Positions 245 through 63,226 of a DNA stretch of 64,000 bases are shown here, piece after piece (position 1 is the first letter of the stretch; every line of letters begins with the position of its first letter). The position numbers were made by a program, and so were the translations under genes. The notes under the pieces are model-generated. The model worked only from the letters and a program-made list of their open reading frames with translations. It was not told the origin of the DNA and did not search any database. This DNA is from Plotosus lineatus (lineage: Eukaryota > Chordata > Actinopteri > Siluriformes > Plotosidae): contig CM045733.1 of assembly GCA_024760905.1 (NCBI GenBank), positions 27,509,501 through 27,573,500 of the forward strand. Reading direction: 5' to 3'.

Positions 245-310
245 CAATTGTTTTGTACCTTGTACATCTGTACTTCTGAGTAATTTGTTTTTCCTCTTTT
301 GTACTATCAG

Positions 311-435
311 AGACTGCATTGCTCTCTGTGCCCTAAACAGTGGCACCAGCATTTTTGCCGGCTTTGCTGTGTTCTCTGTTATAGGCTACATGGCTCATGA
401 GCTGGACTTACCTATGGAGGAAATAGTGGCATCAG
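311..435 (+). CDS. Gene 1 exon: TM7
   Basis: The acceptor is TATCAG at 305-310 and the donor GTAATA starts at 436. The exon completes a codon begun in the unseen upstream exon (phase 2) and encodes [17 protein letters not shown] onward, ending EEIVAS plus one base. It is 125 bp, identical in length and phase to the TM7 exon of gene 2 (58134-58258). Confidence 0.88.
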
Positions 436-2361
436 GTAATATCTGATCTTTTAAGAACACTATCTGAGCATAAGTGTGTGATATCAGATTAATCTATACT
501 TAGATACTTATACAGTTCTTGACTAATAAAACCTTTGTAAACATATTCTGGGAGTTAGGATCTGGTCTTTGATTATTTTTATGGCAGAAAAAAGAACAAT
601 GCTAATTAAAAAGGAAAGGGTCACCAGAGAATACTATAATGGTTAATTCTGTAACCACTACTATTGCTAATAATTTATTTTCTTTTAAAGAATGCGGGAA
701 AAAAGGAAATTTATATTATTGGTGCACAGTTAATAATCAGTAATTTTCAGCAAATACTCATCCACTTAAATTTAATCATAGGATGATAAGTTCAGCCAGC
801 TGTTCGAGTAGAAAGTCATGATATAAGTGCTAGAACTTAGTTCATTTCAAAATATTAAAATATTCAAACATATCAGTTTGGCTTTTGCACGAAGCCGCTT
901 TTCCCAGGTAATGAGGGTAAAGTAATTTAATCCTTCAGTTACTTCACCGCATCACTGAAAGTAATTTAAAATCTACTGTTTCACTTTGACCTGTTTCATG
1001 AAGCACAGCAGTGGAAAGCACATACTAAGAAAGCAATTATCATAATGTGCTCAGTGATGGGACAAACTATTTTTACTCTGAACTGTTTTTCAGGTCCAGG
1101 CCTGGCATTTATAGCATATCCCAGAGCCCTGTCTCTTCTCCCAGGCCCGCAGTTTTGGTCTGTCCTTTTCTTCTTGATGATCCTCTTTCTTGGACTAGAC
1201 AGTCAGGTAATAATGTGGATCATTATGTCATTATTATGTCAGAGTGTCTTGACTTGTGAAAACCCAGTTGTATAAGCAGCTTTGCAAATGTCTTTTCACT
1301 TTAGAGCTCATTAAATACCCTCATGAAAATAAAATTACAGCCCATAAATTTTTTTCTCAATATATTTAAATAAACAATGATTTTACCCTGTGTTATAGTG
1401 CATGCAGACAGTGGCAATACACTTCTTTTGCCTTTTGCTAACTTTGCTCAGAAGCACTGTTAACTTCGCTGGTATCTAAGGAATCTAGAATTGACCATCA
1501 CAGAGTGGTACCTTGTACTATATTCAGATTAATCAGTCTGCAATAGAGAATGTTTGCTGAATTTCTAAAAAAAAACAAAAAAAAAAAAAAAAAAAACAGC
1601 TGTGACCCAGTAGTTTGACCATACTGTCCCAAATTATTCTGATTCGCTGTTGTGCTATGTTTGATGATATCTGAATTTACAAAACTGATGTAGTTAGGGT
1701 CAAGAATTATAGTGCTGTATTTTGTATTACAGCAACTAAAAAAAGTTGAAATTAAATACATTTTATGGTAATGAACTATGATGTGGTCCTTTCATAACCA
1801 ATAAGAGTCTCTCGACTCTTCATCTATACAGTTTTCCATTAAATAATGTAAATTTTTGTTTTCATTTAAAATCATGCTCAAGTACAACTGAACTCATTTC
1901 ATATGATGCGTCCCTGTTAGTATACAGAGACATAAAACAATGAATCATAGAACAGGGTGATTCTATAACTGAAATCAATTTTAAAGTATGTTCATGTCTT
2001 GCATGCAAAAAAGTGACATGCATATTAACACTGTGTTTCAGTTCGTTTGTGTGGAAAGTCTCGCCACAGCACTCACTGATGTTTTTCCTGAATATCTAAG
2101 GAAGCCAAAGCGCAGGGAGATTCTAGTGTTGCTTATTGCTGTCGTCTGCTTCCTGCTGGGCCTTCCTCTGGTCACCCAGGTACCAAAAGTGGTACCAAAT
2201 GAAAGACAATAAAATTTTCTTGCATATGGTCGTAAACACATGGAACACCTGTGCAAATTTTAACTAATAAATACCTATTTTTTGTGCTTCGAAAGGATGA
2301 CATACAATACATAACTTTGTCTCAAAAATGTTACTCTTAATAACATAAAAATAAAATAAGG

Positions 2362-4338: not shown

Positions 4339-4675
4339 GGCAGTGGTGGTCTAGTGGGATAGGGCTCTGGATTGCTGATCCAAAGGTTGGGGGTTCGAGT
4401 CCCACTGTCCCTCCCAGTGCGGCTAACTGGGTTATCAAAGGCGGGCCATGGTGAGAGCCTCTCTATGGTGAGAGGCATGTAAAAGAACCATTGCTGACTT
4501 TCATAAAGTGTAGGCTGCAAAGTCGTCAGCGTGTTTCTGTCCCTTGCTAAAAAGGGTTGTGACAGGAAGGGCATCCGACATAAAAACCTCTGCCAAATCA
4601 AACGTACGAATCAGATGATTCGCTGTGGCTGGCGACTCCCGAGTAAAAGGGAAAAAGCCGAAAGGAAGACAGACA

Positions 4676-4730
<55 letters not shown>

Positions 4731-4996
4731 GACAGGACAAAGGCTTTCTATTGAAACTCCATTTATCACTACAGATCTGTTTCGAGGGGTGGTGAAACCA
4801 TCCCCTCTCTTCAGGTGATTACAGAAGAAGATTCTTCTGTAATCACCTGAAGAGAGGGGATGGTTTCACCACCCCTCGAAACAGATCTGTAGTGATAAAT
4901 GGAGTTTCAATAGAAAGCCTTTGTCCTGTCCTTTTGTTATTTGCTCTACCAAAAAGTATTGAGCACTCTCCTACGGAAGGATCTACTCAGAAAATC

Positions 4997-5039
<43 letters not shown>

Positions 5040-5288: not shown

Positions 5289-8200
5289 GTTCAGTATAAT
5301 GTTTGAATATACAGGAAATAAGTTAATTTTGTTTGAGTAAAATGAGAAAATAATCCCAGTACAATGCTACAGGTGCAGACCGTTTTATGGATAACATCGA
5401 AGACATGATTGGATATCGTCCCTCACTAGTGCTGAAGTACTGCTGGCTCTTCATCACTCCATTCATCTGTAGTGTAAGTTCTCTAAATTTCTTTCCTCTT
5501 TTTATTCTCTACTGTGTATTCTTTAAAAGAACACAAGAGGTTCAAATGAATATGCAATACACTGATATGTACATAAATGTTTTATACTTTAACAACCTCA
5601 CGAGATCATTTTGGGTAACCAGTTGTCAAAAAATATGATTTTGACAACAATGTCAGTGTTAGATATTTCACGTGATGATTACGTTGTATCGACCATTGCT
5701 TATTGCATTGCTGCCTAATATCCAAGCTGTTGCACCTGGCCACAGGTTTACAGTACGGTAGTGTGTGTAGAAGCCGGATTGAGTAATTTTGCTGTAGGAA
5801 TTGTCCTCGATTCTTTTTCTGCAAGGCATTGAAGGGATACTGTGTATTACCCACCATCCCGATTCTCCTGCAGTATGCATGACACATGGTCGGGGCCGGT
5901 GGCGTAGTGGTTAGGGGGGCTACACTCATGATTGGGAGGTTGTGTGTTCAAATCCCAGTTCGACCCTCACTGTGCTAAGACCCCTGGGCAAGGCCTCAAC
6001 CATAAATGTGCCTCTGTTCACCCAGCAGTATAAATGGGTACCAGTAAAAATATACTGGGACGATAACCTGTGATGGACTAGCATCCCATCCAGGAGGAGT
6101 TGTACTCGTAGTCGCTTCACGCTATGCAAACTGGGGATAAGCACTGGCCTAATGAGCCACTATGGCTCGGTTGTAAAAAGCCCAAATGCACGACAAACTC
6201 TGTTCATGAAGTGTTGATGACAAAGCTGTGTATAGCCATAGCTGCCTATGGTTGCCATAGCAACCCACCCTGTAAAAGACATGCTATATCTAGGCCAGGA
6301 TTGTCAAACTTATTCCACAAAGTGCTGTGTGGCTGCAGATTTTTAGCACAGAGCACAAAGATTGACCAATTAACTGCCTGAAGACTCCGATCAATTGATC
6401 TAGGCCATTGTATAAACAAACATTCTTGGATATAATGCAATCTAATACCAGACTCACTGGAATCATAACACTCAAATTGAACTTACATATAAAATATACA
6501 ATATATATATATATATATAAGTGGTACATTCCAGTCGTGGTACACTCTGACTATAACTCGCAGCAATACAATGATCGTGTATCATGCAGGTTTTTCCAAC
6601 GTTTTGGTAAGGATCCTGGAGGCTGTCTTGTCCATTTAAAACTCAGTAAGTGATCTCTATTGGATATGAAAAATATAACGCACCAGCTTTCAGTTATACT
6701 GTAATTTTGGTTGGCAAGTCCGAAAAACACAAACCTTTCACACACGCACATCTTATTTACCTCTCTCTTTTCTTTTAATCCAGGGATTTTTTTGGCACTT
6801 GCACACACTGCAGGAGTCATTTAAAAACCGAGATACCACGGGAACAGCATCCTCCTTGAGTTTTGTTTCATTTCAATCTTTTTATTTCTGCAGCTTAGTC
6901 CTGAATGAATGCATCTTCAAACGTTCACTGCACACAACATAATTGCAATTTGGCTAGAATTTCCAGCTATCACTAACATCAGTCCACTCGCGCTTCAAAA
7001 TCTCATCCTTCAGATAATTAAAAAAGAACCTCTTTGTTCCTTTCTGAATGCTTTGTACAATCAGATTTCATTGTACAATGACGCTTCATGGTCCTTTGTT
7101 ATCAAACTGTACCGTGCATGTTCCATAATGGATTATAGACACTATGGTTATCATCATGAACCTTCTCATAAGATCTCACACTTTTTGTAGCAGATGAGAA
7201 CTGAATTTGGGGAAATAAAATCCTTAGTAAAATAATAGTTCTTCTCTGCAATCTTTAACTATTTATGTTTACATAGATATGGAATACTTGGTGAACATTG
7301 TATTTTTGAATTCCTATATTTATCGAGGAAGAAACTCTTTGCTTAGTACCTCATTGTTGACAAACATTTTTTGTTTAGAAACAAAGAAAGTTAATTCATT
7401 TGCAAAGCAATTTTATCCTACTAGGTTCATGGGGAGGATGGAGCCTATTTTAGCCGACTCTGAGTGAGTGCGGGGTACAGCCTGAACAGCTTTCCTGTCC
7501 ATAGCAAGGCCAACACCCAACCATTCATGCTCACAGGGACACCAAGGGGACAATCTGAAACAACCAATTAGCCTAATGTGCATGTCTTTATCCAAAGGAA
7601 ACCCATGCAAGCACGGGAATAAATGATAACCCCACAGAAAAATGGCAGGGTACAGAATACACCTTGAATAGGCCAACAGCCTGTTGCAAGATTAACATAG
7701 ACACAAACAAGCATGCACACTCATACTCACACATGTAGGCATGTAGAGTACCCAGTCGACATAAAGCTCATGTCTTTTGTGGGAGGAAAATAAAATACCC
7801 AGAGAAGACTGACACAAACATGGGGAGAACCTTCAAACGCCACACATCTGGCAGCGGGATTCAAACCCTAAACCTAGAATCTTTTTAAAACATTGCTAAC
7901 CACTGAGCCTCCATGCTGCCATTTTTCATAAAATAAAATCATATAAAAAGCTAAATTGGAACAAGTATTATCAGGTGAATGGGTGCAAGATAATATTGTT
8001 TACCCTTTTCCTTTTTGCATCTGTCTCACTGTCTACCACTGTACTTCTTTTTGTAATGCCACCACAGGCCACTCTTTTTTATGATGTGTTCGAAGGTCCA
8101 CCACTCGGTGTGTTAAATGAATTTGTACCCAGCTGGGGTCTTGCAGTTGCTTCCCTGCTCACTCTCACACCAATGGCGTGCATCCCTATCTTCATTCTGG

Positions 8201-9432
8201 TGGCTGTTATAAGAGTAAGTCAATTACATATTTCACAAATGAATTCTTAACAGACATGGTGTGATTAAGAACTCTGAGAACATATTGCTTTAAACCATAT
8301 TGGTATCTTTATGAAAACATCAAATGTTATTTTTACATGCTTAAGCTGCATTTGTACATTGTTTTCATAAACTACTGAAAGACATATTGTGCATTTAAAA
8401 TATATCAGAGCTTTCCTAAATAAAAAAAAATGCTTTGTATTTTTATATATTTAGTAATTATCTTGTTCTTTATTTTATTTCTGATAAGAAATAGATATTA
8501 CTTTTTGTATTACTGTATACTACAGTGCTGCTTAATGCTCATATGACTAGTCAATGGTTGGTGATTACGTTTCTATAGCAGCAGCTCTGACAGTCGTCGT
8601 CGTCGGCAGCCGTACGTCTCGAGAGACGATGGTGTAGCGCTATGGTAGGCATTTGCGGTAGTGACTGTAAAGGCCCACCTTAGAGTGACAGTTTCTTAAA
8701 CAATTATTGCATATGAAAGGGCTTTGAGGAGCCATGGGGGCTACCCTTTCTTTCCTCTTTGCTCTTTTCTCAGCCAGCTTGTTTATTCTGTTGGTTTCAG
8801 CTTTGTTGATACCCTCGTTGACAGGACTCACACTGCAGTGTTTGGTATGTGACAGGAAGCGCGTCCCAAGGCAATCAGCTGGTCTGTGGGTTGAAGTTTT
8901 TTCATGTCTGTCCATTTGCGTTTTGCTTGCCAGCTCTGCTTGGCTTCTTGCACATGAGCTGAAACAAGTGAAATGTATCTCTTTACCCAAAAACAACTCG
9001 CGCAGGCTGTTGTATATAATCCAATAAAATTAGAATTTCAAGGTATCGGCCCCACCCACACACTGGAGTACAGAAAGGATTGGCTCTCTGCTGCACGCCA
9101 CAGTGACAAGTGGCATTGAAAATAGATGTATAGATTAAAATGTGTGAGATTTATTTATGTTTTTGTTTTATTTGATGGCTTTTGTTCTGTACTTTTATTT
9201 CAAGGACAGCGAAATTACGTATTCGTTATTCTGTTCAGAAAGGCCACCTGATTTATCTGAGAGCCAGATGCAGTCATCAAAAGAGCCACGTCTGGCTCAC
9301 GAGCCATAGGTTCCCGACCCCTGCTCTAATGGATTATAATTTTTTAAGTTGTGGCCAAGAGTTTAAATATTATCATCATGTCCTGGCATATTGAGCTTTT
9401 GGTGGTTTCATGTTGGATAGTTGCCTTAAATA

Positions 9433-13270: not shown

Positions 13271-15569
13271 CAGTGGTTCTTAACCATGGGTTCGATCGAA
13301 CCCTAGGGGTTCGGTGAGTCAGTCACAGGGGTTCGGCAGAGGTCAAGACACACACCTGACTCATATTCATGACAACATGCCCTGCTTGGCCATCACTGGC
13401 TGCAGGAAATTTGGTGTGCTCAGTTGTCGACTTGTGACTGTTGTGATGGTACGTCGTTCGATTTATTTCTCAATGTTTTAATCCATACTATGTTGAGCAA
13501 AAAAAGAAAGCGGTCAGATGAATATGTACAACATGGATTCACATATATAATGGAACGTGATGGGAGTCAGCATCCTATCTGCATGATTTGTGAAGTAGGA
13601 TCCCCCCCCCCCCCCCCCGCTGACGTGTTTATTATATCAATAAACACATATTCAATGCTATAAATGCTTATAATAACAATTACACATTCAAAAACAATGC
13701 ATGAGATGTAAATAAAACATAAGTACTTTGAAGAGCTGATGAATGAGGAAAATGAGAGAGAAAAAAAGAGTAGAAGAGGTGACCATTGAGGAGCAGGATG
13801 TAGCAAAGATCAGTAAGGGTGAAGTGAGAAGGGCATTGAAGAGAATGAAGAATGGAAAGGCAGTTGGTCCTGATGATATACCTGTGGAGGTATGGAAGTG
13901 TCTAGAAGAGGTAGCAGTAGATTTTCTGACAAGAACATTCAACAAGGTACGAGAGAGTGAGCAGATGCCGGAGGAGTGGAGGAGAAGTGTGCTGGTGCCC
14001 ATTTTTAAGAACAAGGGAGATGTGCAGAGTTCTGGCAACTACAGAGGGATAAAGTTGATGAGCCATACGATTAAGTTATGGGAAAGAATCGTGGAAGCTA
14101 GACTAAGGGCAGAGGTCAGCATTTGTGAACAACAGTTTGGTTTCATGCCAAGAAAGAGCACCACAGATGCAATGTTTGCTTTGAGGATGTTAATAGAGAA
14201 GTACAGAGAAGGTCAGAGGGAGCTACATTGTGCCTTTGTGGATCTGGAAAAAGCATATGACAGGGTGCCAAGAGAAGAACTGTGGTATTGCATGAGGAAG
14301 TCTGGAGTGGCAGAGAAGTATGTTAGAGTGGTGCAGGACATGTATGAGAGATGTAAGACAGTGGTGAGGTGTGCTGTCGGTGTGACCGACGAATTCAAGG
14401 TGGAGGTGGGACTGCATCAAGGGTCAGCTCTGAGCCCCTTCTTGTTTGCTATGGTGATGGACAGGCTGACAGACGAGGTGAGACAATAATCTCCATGGAC
14501 TATGATTTTTGCCGATGACATTGTGATCTGTAGTGAGAGCAGAGAAAAAGTGCAGGAAAATCTAGAGAGGTGGAGGTATGCCCTGGAAAGGAGAGGAATG
14601 AAGGTTAGCCTCAGAAAATCAGAATACATGTGTGTGAATGAGAACGACCCAGGAGGAACGGTGATGTTACAGGGAACAGAGATAACGAAGGTGGAGGATT
14701 TTAACTACTTAGTCTCAACAATCCAGAGCAATGGAGAGTGTGGAAAAGAGGTGAAGAAGCGTGTGCAGGCAGGCTGGAATGGTTGGAGAAAAGTGTCCGG
14801 TGTGATGTGCGATAGGAGAGTCAGCAAGAATGAAGGGAAAAGTGTACAAGACGGTGGTGAGCCCAGCGATGTTGTATGGCTTAGAAACAGTGGCGCTGAG
14901 GAAAAGGCAGGAGGCAGAGCTGGAGGTCGCGGAGATGAAAATGTTGAGGTTGTCTCTGGGAGTAACGAGGATGGATAGGATCAGAAATTAGTATATCAGA
15001 GGGACAGCCCACATAAGATCTTTTGGAGACAAAGTCAGAGAGGCTAGATTGAGATGGTTTGGACATGTACAGAGGAGGGATAGTGAGTATATTGGCAGTA
15101 GGATGCTGAGGTTGGAACTACCAGGCAGAAGGCCTCGAGGAAGACCAAAGAAGAGATTTATGGATGTGGTGAAGGAAGACATGAAGGTCGTTGGAGTCAG
15201 AAAAGAAGATGCGGAGGACAGGGTGAGGTGGAGACGGATGATTTGCTGTGGCGACCCCTGAAGGGAGCAGCCGAAAATAAAAGAAGAAGAAGAAGATGTA
15301 AATAAAACATAAATACACACACAGATGCGCACCTCATATAAAAATGAAAGTAGTTGTGATGGGGAGTTCATGCATTGTATTGGTTTTGTTCTTTGAATAC
15401 AGTGATGTTAATGCATGGTTCATTTTGGTGCCCCAGTAAAAACATATACCTTTGTCTTGAATTTGAAAAAAAAAAAAAAGTCATTTTATTTTTCAATAAA
15501 GAAAGGTTCGATGAATAAGCATATGAAACTGGTGGGGTTCAGAACCGCCAACAAGGTTAAGAACCACTG
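13271..15569 (+). mobile_element. hAT DNA transposon relic with nested RTE
   Basis: Perfect 15-bp terminal inverted repeats, CAGTGGTTCTTAACC and GGTTAAGAACCACTG. The flanking 8-bp duplication is CTCTCAAC on the left and CTCTAAAC on the right (one difference). Near 13490-13590 the frame KKRKRSDEYVQHGFTYIMER with HPICMIC resembles the BED-type zinc finger N-terminus of hAT transposases. The catalytic part is gone; a 1.57 kb RTE occupies the middle. A poly(C) run is at 13602-13617. Confidence 0.82.
13726..15294 (+). mobile_element. RTE-clade LINE, 5'-truncated, inside hAT
   Basis: The insertion is flanked by a ~20-bp duplication (GATGTAAATAAAACATAAGT at 13705 and GATGTAAATAAAACATAA at 15295). 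A reverse transcriptase frame runs 13743-14489 (GKAVGPDDIPVEVWK, FVDLEKAYDRVP, GLHQGSALSPFLF). A stop then breaks it where other copies read on, and FADDIVIC follows from 14502 in another frame. The end is GCTGTGGCGACCCCTGAAGG, then (GAA)n, typical of RTE elements with very short 3' UTRs. Not functional. Confidence 0.88.
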
Positions 15570-22419: not shown

Positions 22420-23600
22420 AGGAAGGAGGAGGGTTGTGCACAGGGTTAGCAGCCCAGCCACGTATAACTCCCAAACACTCCGGAAACCAAGTCAGGAAGC
22501 CAAAGCCAAGCAAAAAGGAGCCCAGAAGATATTGGTTGTGGAAGCAACTTTAATTGCCGCTAGCCAAACCAGACATGGAGGTCATGACAGAAATAATATT
22601 TTTCTGGGCCCCAAACACAAATTTTACATTAGTGCATGGAATGTTCGCACAATGTATGAGACAAGAAAGACAAGTCAGGTGATACAAGTCATCTTCTCCG
22701 GCAGAATGGACAATCATCACTCTAGAGGAGTACTTGCAATTAAAACGAAAAAGCACAAAAAGCTCTGATAGAATGGCATCCAACAGAGAATAATAACAGC
22801 TAGATTCTTGTCAAAATACTCAAAGATGACCATAGCGCAGTGCTATGCACCAACAAATGATGCTGAAGAGGAAACAAAGAATAGTTTGTAATAGAAAGGT
22901 ACCAGCACATGATTTGCTAATAGTCTGTGGAGATTTCAATGCTAAAGTTGGGAATGATGACAGCAACAAAGAAAGGACCATGGGAAAAGCTGGTGTGGGA
23001 AATATAAATTAAAATGGTGAACTGTTCGGCAACTTTTGTGGATTAAATGATCTTGTAATAGGAAGAACCTTATTCCACCACAAGAACCTCCACAAAATTA
23101 CATGGTACTCTCCAAACAGAAGGGACGTCAACCAAATAGACCATATAGTCATAAATGGTAGGTGGAAACACTCACTACTTGATGTCCGAGCAAAGAGAGG
23201 TGCAGACTGTGGAAATGACCATCACCTAGTAATCTGCAAGATCCGCTTGAAGCTAAAGACCCCAGGCAAGAAACACTCTGACCGGGAGGGATATAACATC
23301 CAAAAGCTCGAACAGCCTGAAATGCAACAAAAGTTCAAGTTTGAACTAAAACATCGTTATCAGCCACTGCTTGTAGCAGATGAAGTAACAAACAACACAG
23401 GCGAAGACATAGAGAATGAGTGGGCAGCAATAAAGGTCATCTATAAGGAAACATCAAAAACAGTCCTTGGAGTCAGAGACAGGAACAGAAAGGAATGGAT
23501 TAGTGAACCAACATTGGATGCGGTAATGGATAGGAAGAACATCAAACAGAAGTTATTACAGGTAAAATCTGGAAGGGTTGAAGGAAAGAATCCAGTCTCA
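22420..23600 (+). mobile_element. Non-LTR retrotransposon, AP-endonuclease fragment (second LINE lineage)
   Basis: Frames broken by stops and shifts give SAWNVRTMYETRK near 22640, CYAPTNDAEEE near 22845, VCGDFNAKVGNDDSN near 22930, TWYSPN..DVNQIDHIVING near 23100, and GADCGNDHHLV near 23205. These are the ordered motifs of the exonuclease-endonuclease-phosphatase domain of LINEs. It continues downstream to 23600 without reverse transcriptase. The sequence is unlike the RTE endonuclease at 46.3-46.7 kb. Confidence 0.7.
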
Positions 23601-23739
23601 AAACACAGAGCCATTCACAATCACACCTTGGAACATCCAATAGTGAGCCTAATTTTTATTTATTTATTTTGCTACAATGTATGAATCCCACAAGAGAAAT
23701 TATTCCTTAGAAGTGAACACACTAATCTTTTTATTAGTT

Positions 23740-24062
23740 ATGGGTTGCCACATACATCGAGGGTGTCCAGAAAGCAGTTGGGGGTTGGCTACCTTGCTCA
23801 TGGGCACTTCAGTGATGAGTGAGGAGGAAGGGAAGGGAAGGTGCAACTCACTATCCCCACCACTGCACATTTTTACTGCTGGTTTGGGAATTAAACCAGC
23901 GGCCTTTCAGTCCCTTCTGAAGTCCCAAGCTGCTTTTCTAACCATGGTCTTGCTAACCATGGTCAGTAAGACCATGGTCCTGATAATCATGGTCTTGGAA
24001 CTGTAGGAGAACACTGAAGTACCCAGAGGCCCTCCTTACTGAAGTGGACGTGTTAACCACTA
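23740..24062 (-). repeat. SINE-like interspersed repeat with CCATGGT cluster
   Basis: GTTGGCTACCTTGCTCATGG and a degenerate reversed B box are typical of a fish SINE read backwards. From 23940 a run of CCATGGT/ACCATGG palindromes follows. Confidence 0.45.
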
Positions 24063-24079
24063 CCATGGCACACCATTGT

Positions 24080-24083
24080 TTGT

Positions 24084-24147
<64 letters not shown>

Positions 24148-24148
24148 T
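24080..24148. repeat. (TG)n microsatellite
   Basis: About 65 bp of TG dinucleotide with a few CG interruptions at the left. Confidence 0.97.
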
Positions 24149-24293
24149 AAGGAGTGTCTGAATTTTTAAACTAATGCTTGCCAGGTTTTCACAGTTTGGC
24201 AAATTTGACAAAAATCAGAGTGGATTTAAAACTTGCTCAAAGCACAAATAGTTACATGATATGCAACACATTGATGAAAATTAAACATGTATT

Positions 24294-25477
24294 TTGAATC
24301 CAGGATAAATGTCATCATTTTTTCAGAGTGCAACACTGACCGATGATATCAGAGTTTTGCCGTGGAATTTCTGAAGGATGTTAATCGAGAAGTACAGAGA
24401 AGGTCAAACAGAGCTGCATTGTGCCTTTGTGGATATGGAGAAAGCATATGACAGGGTGTCGAGAGAGAAACTGTGGTATTGTATGAGGAAGTCTGGAGTG
24501 GCAGAGAAGTATGTTAGAGTGGTGCAGGACATGTATGAGACATGTAAGACAGTGGTGAGGTGTGCTGTCGGCGTGACCAACGAATTCAAGGTGGAGGTGG
24601 GAGAGCAGCACGGGTCAGCTCTGAGCCCCTTCTTGTTTGCTATGGTGATGGACAGGCTGACAGACGAGGTGAGGCAAGAATCTCCATGGACTATGATGTT
24701 TGCAGATGACATTGTGATCTGTAGTGAGAGCAGAGAACAAGTGGAGGAAAATCTAGAGAGGTGGAGGTATGCCCTGGAAAGGAGAGGAATGAAGGTTAGC
24801 CTCATAAAATCAGAATACATATGTGTGAATGACAAGGACCCAGGAGGAACGGTGATGTTACAGGGAGCAGAGATAATGAAGGTGGAGGATTTTAAGTACT
24901 TAGGCTCAACAATCCAGAGCAATGGAGAGTGTGGAAAAGAGGTGAAGAAGCGCGTGCAGGCAGGCTGGAATAGTTGGAGAAAAGTGTCCGGTGTGATGTG
25001 CGACAGGAGAGTATCAGCAAGAATGAAAGGAAAAATGTACAAGACGGTGGTGAGGCCAGCGATGTTGTATGGCTTAGAAACAGTGGCGCTGAGGAAAAGG
25101 CAGGAGGCAGAGCTGGAGGTAGCGGAGATGAAAATGTTGAGGTTCTCTCTGGGAGTAACGAGGATGGATAGGATCAGAAATGAGTACATCAGAGGGACAG
25201 CCCATGTAAGATGTTTTGGAGACAAAGTCAGAGAGGCTAGATTGAGATGGTTTGGACATGTTCAGAGGAGGGATAGTGAGTATATTGGAGGTAGGATGCT
25301 GAGGTTGGAACTACCAGGCAGAAGGCCTAGAGGAAGACCAAAGAAGAGATTTATGGATGTGGTGAAGGAAGATATGAAGGTCGTTGGAGTCAGAAAAGAA
25401 GATGCAGAGGACAGGGTGAGATGGAGGCGGATGATTTGCTGTGGCAACCCCTGAATGGAGCAGCCGAAAGGAAAAGA

Positions 25478-30354: not shown

Positions 30355-30691
30355 GGGGCAGTGGTGGTCTAGTGGTATAGGGCGCTGGATCGTTGATCCA
30401 AAGGTTGGGGGTTCGAGTCCCACTCTCCACAAGGTTGTCAAATGTCCCTCCAGTGCAGCTAACTGGGTTATCAAAGGCCGGCCATGTCTCTCACTGTCTA
30501 TGGTGAGAGGCATGTAAAAGAACCATTGCTGACTTTCGTAAAGAGTAGCTGCAAAGCTGTCGGCGTGTTTCCGCCCTGCGATGGCCTGGCGAGCTGTCCA
30601 GGGTGTACTCTGCCCTCGCCCGAAGTTGGCTGGGATGGGTGCCAGCCTCCCCGCGACCCAAATTAGGATTAAGCGGTTACAGAAAATGATG
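30355..30691 (+). mobile_element. tRNA-derived SINE, alternative tail, with target duplication
   Basis: Flanked by ATTCTGGGATGG on both sides (30343-30354 and 30692-30703). Head GGGGCAGTGGTGGTCTAGTG, B box GGTTCGAGTCCC. From about 30570 it switches to CCTGCGATGGCCTGGCGAGC and ends GGATTAAGCGGTTACAGAAA, not the RTE tail. The intact duplication marks it as a genuine retroposed copy. Confidence 0.88.
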
Positions 30692-36407: not shown

Positions 36408-60807
<24,400 letters not shown>

Positions 60808-62509: not shown

Positions 62510-62534
<25 letters not shown>

Positions 62535-62536
<2 letters not shown>

Positions 62537-62570
62537 TGAGCACTCTCCTACGGAAGGATCTACTCAGAAA

Positions 62571-62574
<4 letters not shown>
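62535..62574 (+). repeat. Tail fragment of hammerhead family
   Basis: ATTGAGCACTCTCCTACGG to TCAGAAAATCA, between two (TA)n runs. Confidence 0.8.

Positions 62575-62575
<1 letters not shown>

Positions 62576-62634
<59 letters not shown>
62576..62634. repeat. (TA)n array
   Basis: About 59 bp of TA separating two hammerhead-family units in opposite orientation. Confidence 0.97.
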
Positions 62635-62640
<6 letters not shown>

Positions 62641-62736
62641 TTTCTGAGTAGATCCTTCCGTAGGAGAGTGCTCAATACTTTTGGTAGAGCAAATAAACAA
62701 AGGACAGGACAAAGGCTTTCTATTGAAACCCCATTT

Positions 62737-62791
62737 ATCACTACAGATCTGTTTCGAGGGGTGGTGAAACCATCCCCTCTCTTCAGGTGAT
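62737..62791 (-). ncRNA. Hammerhead ribozyme motif (left arm, copy 3)
   Basis: Same sequence as the 4765-4819 motif read on the minus strand: CTGAAGA, GAGGGG/CCCCTC stem II, GAAA, ACA/TGT stem III, GTA site, ATCAC/GTGAT stem I. Confidence 0.82.
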
Positions 62792-62810
62792 TACAGAAGA
62801 TTCTTCTGTA

Positions 62811-62865
62811 ATCACCTGAAGAGAGGGGATGGTTTCACCACCCCTCGAAACAGATCTGTAGTGAT
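62811..62865 (+). ncRNA. Hammerhead ribozyme motif (right arm, copy 3)
   Basis: Identical in core and stems to 4842-4896. Predicted cleavage between 62860 and 62861. Confidence 0.85.
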
Positions 62866-62905
62866 AAATGGAGTTTCAATAGAAAGCCTTTGTCCTGTCC
62901 TTTTG

Positions 62906-63026
<121 letters not shown>

Positions 63027-63027
<1 letters not shown>

Positions 63028-63226
63028 ATTTTCTGAGTAGATCCTTCCGTAGGAGAGTGCTCAATACTTTTTGGTAGAGCAAATAACAAAAATAAAAGGA
63101 CAGGACAAAGACTTTCTATTGAAATTCCATTTATCACTACAGATCTGTTTCGAGGGGTGGTGAAACCATCCTCTCTCTTCAGGTGATTATAGAAGTTCAC
63201 ATTATATGTCCTGTCCTTTTATTTTT

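Follow-up and report, generated by a model that had tools for sequence, protein, structure and literature searches.

The palindrome at positions 4726–4999 of the window (the whole 64,000-nt stretch of DNA analysed here) is probably an insertion consisting only of the pseudo-LTR of a GIY-YIG Penelope-like element (PLE), made by two-ended priming, with a minority of such insertions deriving from hammerhead-cut RNA. Its arms adjoin the coding frame of a PLE elsewhere in the genome; units of the family have two fixed outer ends and varied centres, and doubly truncated copies show an excess of inner ends at S60–S62 in the arm numbering defined below, at the predicted ribozyme cut. From this we infer priming from both ends of the target, a transcript start at S0/S1 and the ribozyme as cutter. 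With thousands of insertions in a single genome, each revealing the start and end points of its cDNAs, one can ask whether the ribozyme cuts in cells, whether a single RNA serves the two DNA ends, and how head-to-head pseudo-LTRs originate, a question left open in the available text of the report on Adineta vaga (PMC3846280). The analysis covers one host genome and chosen loci, and concerns a predicted hammerhead.

Structure of the palindromic unit

The two arms, 4726–4829 and 4832–4935, are each 104 nt long, 100% complementary to one another and separated by a 2-nt spacer. The original prediction described a near-perfect 104-bp inverted repeat with a hammerhead in each arm, and this is confirmed: the arms are perfect, and a complete core lies on the outward strands. 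The interval first assigned to the feature, 4765–4896, does cover both hammerheads; what it omits is a tail on one of the arms, and the full unit spans 4726–4999. Positions within the unit are numbered along the sense strand of the arm, such that S1 is window position 4832, S60 is 4891, S104 is 4935 and S169 is 4999, the tail of the window unit being one base shorter than the 65-nt reference tail. Further units were recognised elsewhere in the window, and all are given here with the basis of each assignment.

4726–4829, minus strand: short arm, the 3′ part of the pseudo-LTR from S104 to S1, without tail (arm comparison)
4830–4831, no strand: centre GA, in which A reads as parent base S0, plus one extra G/C (S0 is A in parent copies)
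4832–4935, plus strand: S1–S104 part of the long arm, identical in sequence to the short arm (arm comparison)
4936–4999, plus strand: tail S105–S169, on the long arm only, followed by (TA)n (sequence and locus parsing)
4842–4896, plus strand: predicted hammerhead, with the cut predicted at 4891/4892 (sequence, descriptor scan and RF00163 alignment of 72 nt)
4765–4819, minus strand: predicted mirror hammerhead, with the cut predicted between 4770 and 4769 (sequence)
42115–42338, no strand: second unit, subfamily A, long arm truncated at S64 (locus parsing)
62638–62906, no strand: third unit, full palindrome with tail (locus parsing)
63024–63220: fourth unit, long arm at 63024–63195 (minus strand), other arm reduced to TGTCCTGTCCTTTT at 63207–63220 (locus parsing)

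At 62534–62605 and 62606–62677, tail-end sequence and TA repeats form another perfect inverted repeat, of 72 bp, that lacks arms.

The predicted hammerhead

On the plus strand, stem I pairs ATCAC (4842–4846) with GTGAT (4892–4896), and the core is made up of CTGAAGA (4847–4853), GAA (4878–4880) and the A at 4891, which precedes the predicted cut at 4891/4892. Stem II, GAGGGGaTGGTttcACCACCCCTC (4854–4877), has 10 bp with one bulge, stem III is ACAgatcTGT (4881–4890), with 3 bp and the loop GATC, and the predicted cut site triplet is GUA. Each arm thus has the CUGANGA...GAAA...UH core with three stems that is a feature of type I hammerheads, and the anatomy originally described was correct. A descriptor scan (CTGANGA, stem II of at least 4 bp, GAAA, stem III of at least 3 bp, TH, stem I of at least 4 bp) matched the window four times, all matches coming from the palindrome's family; in Markov simulations, the same descriptor gave 19 matches in 2,807 windows, or 0.0068 expected per window.

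Searched at gathering thresholds, Rfam detected no hammerhead, and relaxing the search over the 381 nt that surround the palindrome gave 39 matches, chiefly to hairpin families and none to a hammerhead. When 72 nt alone were compared with RF00163 (Hammerhead_1), every core position was aligned, but the score was 10.7 bits (E 6.2), below the threshold of 34. The covariance check proposed with the original prediction therefore falls below threshold, the core being intact nonetheless. The accompanying worry, that stem pairs might fail to covary, is justified in part: subfamily A, the commoner subfamily in the contig-C1 sample, has an A.C mismatch in stem II. In folding calculations, the hammerhead fold lies 2.8 kcal/mol above the minimum free energy, and a transcript containing both arms adopts a hairpin of −200 kcal/mol, which supports the earlier expectation that a long hairpin would compete with ribozyme folding.

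Recurrent small deletions around CCCCTCGAAAC were observed in L002, L011, L022, L023, L026, L079, L094, L113 and L115. They remove the G of the GAAA core, and may have arisen by slippage of reverse transcriptase (RT) at stem II, or may mark a subfamily whose ribozyme is dead.

A Penelope-like parent

The exact arm 26-mer occurs 11,398 times (5,688 + 5,710) in the 1.33-Gb genome of 30 contigs, whereas a reversed 26-mer control has zero occurrences in the same genome. Longer copies (L048–L050, L077, L082 and L092) have arms extended upstream of S1 and, in L092, an RT C-terminus and a GIY-YIG frame lie between the inverted arms, both frames matching consecutive parts of one protein, P0007. The L092/P0007 frames contain YRDDG, which we take to be the RT motif. 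Homologues of the L092 RT frame numbered 1,378 at E ≤ 1e-3, with Nematostella, Oculina and the pipefish Entelurus among the 120 listed, and in the host genome, where 132 of 441 candidates were scored, the frame had 135 matches, many of them in open frames several hundred residues long.

We inspected 1.2 kb downstream of six RT matches chosen from these 135. In all six the arm sequence was found 3′ of the GIY-YIG frame, at 94–100% identity, and the arm is therefore the 3′ pseudo-LTR of a GIY-YIG Penelope-like element; the suspected link to this class of elements is borne out by these chosen loci. Four of the six stop at the S104 site, and the other two (L170 and L172) continue into the tail. 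In L168–L171 and L173, but not in L172, the end of the RT query reads straight on into GIY-YIG within a single frame. Domain searches were less productive, Pfam yielding only a weak GIY-YIG match in the L092 frames (13 bits), neither RT nor GIY-YIG in ten relatives, neither domain in P0007 and, among 18 relatives, GIY-YIG in three (best E 3e-4) and RVT_1 in one; a profile search against PDB sequences gave no match. An AlphaFold model of P0007 had a mean pLDDT of 60, and the best PDB fold matches were RTs (TM 0.26). Taken together, Pfam and the fold search lend modest support to the domains.

Outer ends, targets and centres

Thirty-nine loci found with the arm, together with the window, were parsed into 42 head-to-head pairs, and a stricter script run over L001–L120 and the window recovered 59. 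Every one of these 59 pairs combines one tailed with one tail-less arm (58 by tags, L105 by eye), and the rule extends to 50/50 listed doubly truncated loci, described below (49 by tags; in L143 the tail is partly deleted). With one pair common to both sets, 108 distinct head-to-head pairs were scored and none was symmetrical; L018, which has an N run, was not scorable for the tail. Single-arm loci also exist (L004, L030 and others). A TA run was present within 45 nt of 95/95 short ends and 66/75 long ends, most of the nine long ends without one lying in (TC)n. For comparison, (TA)≥4 runs fill 2.0% of the window. Target-site duplication is unreadable inside (TA)n.

Centres measured from 0 to ~140 nt, some being assembled from arm pieces, and 38 comparable joints displayed 28 different centre strings. 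Two of these strings recurred, 6 and 5 times. Among 20 strict joints GA was seen 7 times and C 5 times, and such recurrence of short centres we count against the explanation preferred below. The GA/TC centre was found in both mirror forms relative to the tail, which favours separate origins. One extra C/G was present at 12/20 strict full-arm joints, and A/T without C/G at six single-base S61 joints; that the extra base is a copied cap is suggestive only. The centres of L003, L024 and L038 are long fillers of repeated arm pieces or TA-rich runs, resembling the products of template jumping or theta-type joining. L025, L029 and L033, which occupy different places, each have their long arm ending at S32, within the loop of stem II.

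Comparison of the arms between subfamilies flagged 7 of 86 pairs, three for single base differences (L002, L012 and L059) and four for an indel near the short arm's end, and these arm variants do not discriminate between the copying of one RNA and of two. Where one arm was truncated beyond S12 and the other was near full, the shortened arm was the tailed one in 10/11 pairs, at loci partly chosen for a full arm; that truncation falls nearly always on the tailed arm hints at an order of synthesis.

Inner ends and the predicted cut site

Inner ends were read for 101 arms, taken from the first 100 listed 26-mer matches plus one. Sixty-seven end at S0–S4 (34 at S0, 13 at S1, 10 at S2 and 10 at S4), six run at least 126 nt upstream of S1, one lies beside an N run, and three end at S60/S61, two of these being the arms of L069 and the third the lone arm of L086, joined to TA repeats. 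Because parent copies have AATCATTCTTC, or nearly so, at S0, which we take to resemble an initiator, S0/S1 is probably the RNA 5′ end and hence the transcript start.

A pattern search permitting any content between two inverted arms truncated downstream found 238 doubly truncated loci. Among the 50 listed (contigs C1–C3), 61/100 arm ends fell at S60–S62, the predicted cleavage product beginning at S61, and in 24/50 loci both arm ends did so. By position, the listed ends included 8 at S59, 20 at S60, 26 at S61 and 15 at S62, subject to greedy matching, which can shift an arm end by one base. The strict 61/61 form was seen in 29/50 listed loci, seven of which continue through stem III and were left out of the S61 class. 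Against a null spread evenly over 31 positions, p is about 2e-36, a crude figure that treats arms as independent and ignores joining preferences. Two neighbouring doubly truncated loci are separate insertions, one of which was left out of the null test as a duplicate, and no two of the 50 listed loci had a common 60-nt flank stretch. Two observations are counted against our preferred explanation: 13/100 listed arm ends lie at S50, a self-palindrome in stem III, and 18/21 of the doubly truncated pairs fetched first have the A-type base at S87, despite the stem II mismatch of subfamily A.

The idea that pairs with one full arm show a sharp peak at S61 was considered and rejected. In 20 loci combining one full type-B arm with one arm truncated at S39–S69, only one end lay at S60–S62 and ten at S45–S53, near stem II (8/20 at S46–S52). 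The 24 pairs of the contig-C1 sample included one with both arms at S60/S61, none with a full arm and an S60/S61 end, and four with one arm truncated between S13 and S59; in L003 and L007, which were found with the full arm, a full arm is paired with an end at or near S61. Ends at S61 therefore come mostly in pairs and other truncations mostly do not, a pattern resting on type B and on small numbers. That sister copies end at or next to the predicted cut suggests that the ribozyme cuts in living cells.

Origin of the insertions

Under the explanation that we favour, the PLE enzyme would open AT-rich DNA, in most cases (TA)n, and the two ends so exposed would prime reverse transcription of the element RNA, one starting at the distal site S169, which gives the tail, and the other at the proximal site S104. 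Both cDNAs would run to the RNA 5′ end near S0/S1, just upstream of the hammerhead, after which they would be linked head to head, frequently by way of fillers. For a minority of insertions the template would be hammerhead-cut RNA, both cDNAs would stop at S61, and the insertion would record the cut site. We invoke two cDNAs because the centres vary and the outer ends follow a fixed long/short rule. The ribozyme that matters probably sits in the parent RNA and not in the inserted palindrome. Most insertions would come from uncut RNA, the cut-RNA share being an estimated 2% or so if about half of the 238 loci qualify among several thousand units; taken with the result for PAc mutants described below, this implies that the ribozyme is not needed. 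It is conceivable, although we stop short of calling it probable, that insertion is concerted, each DNA end being assigned its own RNA start site and the ribozyme state being common to both templates. A common cut state could arise if one RNA were copied twice, or if two RNAs were held by a dimeric hammerhead via the self-complementary stem III ACAGATCTGT and cut together. If this is true, the genome preserves a trace of hammerhead cutting as it took place in vivo in the course of retrotransposition.

Self-priming on an antisense template has been proposed for Penelope in Adineta vaga, in the available text of that report (PMC3846280). A single RNA-templated cDNA that turned at its end and was copied as the second arm would account directly both for two arms ending at one point and for their near identity. 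Such fold-back is nevertheless unlikely here, as the second arm has its own fixed end near S104, rather than the first arm's start, and a copied arm would be expected to shorten along with its template, whereas in 10 of the 11 uneven pairs, some of them selected for having a full arm, the tailed arm is shortened and the tail-less one is full. We give a similarly small chance to the S61 ends being the work of an RT stop, a joining preference or another nuclease, with the hammerhead inactive, a reading that is compatible with two-ended priming. The low Rfam score is in its favour, as are the ends away from S61 (10/20 at S45–S53 beside stem II, three pairs at S32 and 13/100 at S50). By reasoning, however, stem I should arrest an enzyme near S65–S66, before the 3′ strand of that stem is copied, and S61 is the last base of this strand as well as the predicted cut; moreover, ends at S60–S62 mostly hit both arms, whereas other truncations mostly leave one arm near full.

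The original prediction viewed the palindrome, with one ribozyme per strand, as a minimal mobile unit in itself. Short units do far outnumber longer copies (only 6/101 arms run at least 126 nt upstream of S1), and GA, the centre of the window unit, is the commonest (7/20 strict joints). Yet one replicating unit would not give the GA centre in both mirror forms relative to the tail, nor does replication of a fixed palindrome sit well with 28 different centre strings in 38 joints, with single arms or with independent truncations. Given these centres and the long/short rule of the outer ends, that view is probably wrong, and we regard a palindrome replicating as a minimal element as very improbable. 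Hardly any weight falls on a MITE or fold-back DNA transposon in which the inverted repeats resemble a hammerhead by chance: long perfect inverted repeats, many copies and AT-rich sites would suit it, but the outer ends are unequal in 108 scored pairs, the centres vary, and arms exist as single copies and also form the 3′ end of an element with reverse transcriptase and GIY-YIG. A DNA transposon with terminal inverted repeats, the first idea to come from L001–L008, was dropped once the parent reverse transcriptase was found.

Comparison with known elements

Read as pseudo-LTR-only insertions of a PLE, the units represent an element of a known kind. The expected features are present: RT and GIY-YIG in one frame, inverted pseudo-LTRs with a tail on one of them, and an AT-rich target. 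As far as the available accounts extend, RT with GIY-YIG, pseudo-LTRs, an optional tail and AT-rich targets are shared with PAc of Anolis and the Pen families of Adineta vaga; Adineta also has inverted pseudo-LTRs of which one bears the tail (PMC3846280), and PAc has the hammerhead and two internal start sites (PMC11167929). In the available text on PAc, both strands were cut and extended, with two internal RNA start sites in vitro, and the tail is the stretch between them; hammerhead mutants inserted normally, no reads ended at the cut site, and uncut RNA was the main substrate (PMC11167929). The PAc start site showed no strand difference in that text (PMC11167929), unlike the present family, where every scored pair has a different site at each end; this contrast we count against our preferred explanation. 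Relative to canonical GIY-YIG PLEs, pseudo-LTR-only palindromes dominate our sample, which also differs in the tail asymmetry of 108 scored pairs and in a class of insertions ending at the predicted ribozyme cut.

The weak stem III, here of 3 bp, is like that of the minimal type I hammerheads of PLEs and Terminons (PMC7761336). Motifs with a weak stem III are said, in the available part of that review, to cut as dimers, for which the self-complementary ACAGATCTGT would be well suited (PMC7761336). The in vivo activity and role of these hammerheads are called ‘still a mystery’ in the same text (PMC7761336), whereas the present family has a genomic footprint that is consistent with cutting. Metazoan retrozymes are likewise repeated DNA with type I hammerheads (PMC7229834), but they form head-to-tail repeats that yield circles; here the arms belong to an element with its own RT. 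Instead of the head-to-tail hammerhead repeats of 150–400 nt that characterise retrozymes, the arms are arranged head to head. The cut-site footprint and the tail rule were not found in the open-licence literature searched, and print may hold more.

Genomic context of the window

Upstream of the palindrome and on the same strand, window positions 297–446 match SNF (profile 283–326 of 524, E 7e-11). Another SLC6 start is present at 36420–36701. The ORF at 7999–8250 had no Pfam match. The originally suggested location in an intron of an SLC6 gene thus gains support from the upstream match and none from this ORF, and the palindrome likely lies inside such an intron. Other repeats in the window include two tRNA-like matches at the Rfam threshold (4340–4409 and 30358–30431), probably the heads of tRNA-derived SINEs, and degraded LINE-type reverse-transcriptase frames, recognised by eye in the ORF list, at 13743–14978, 22421–25454 and 43617–46768.
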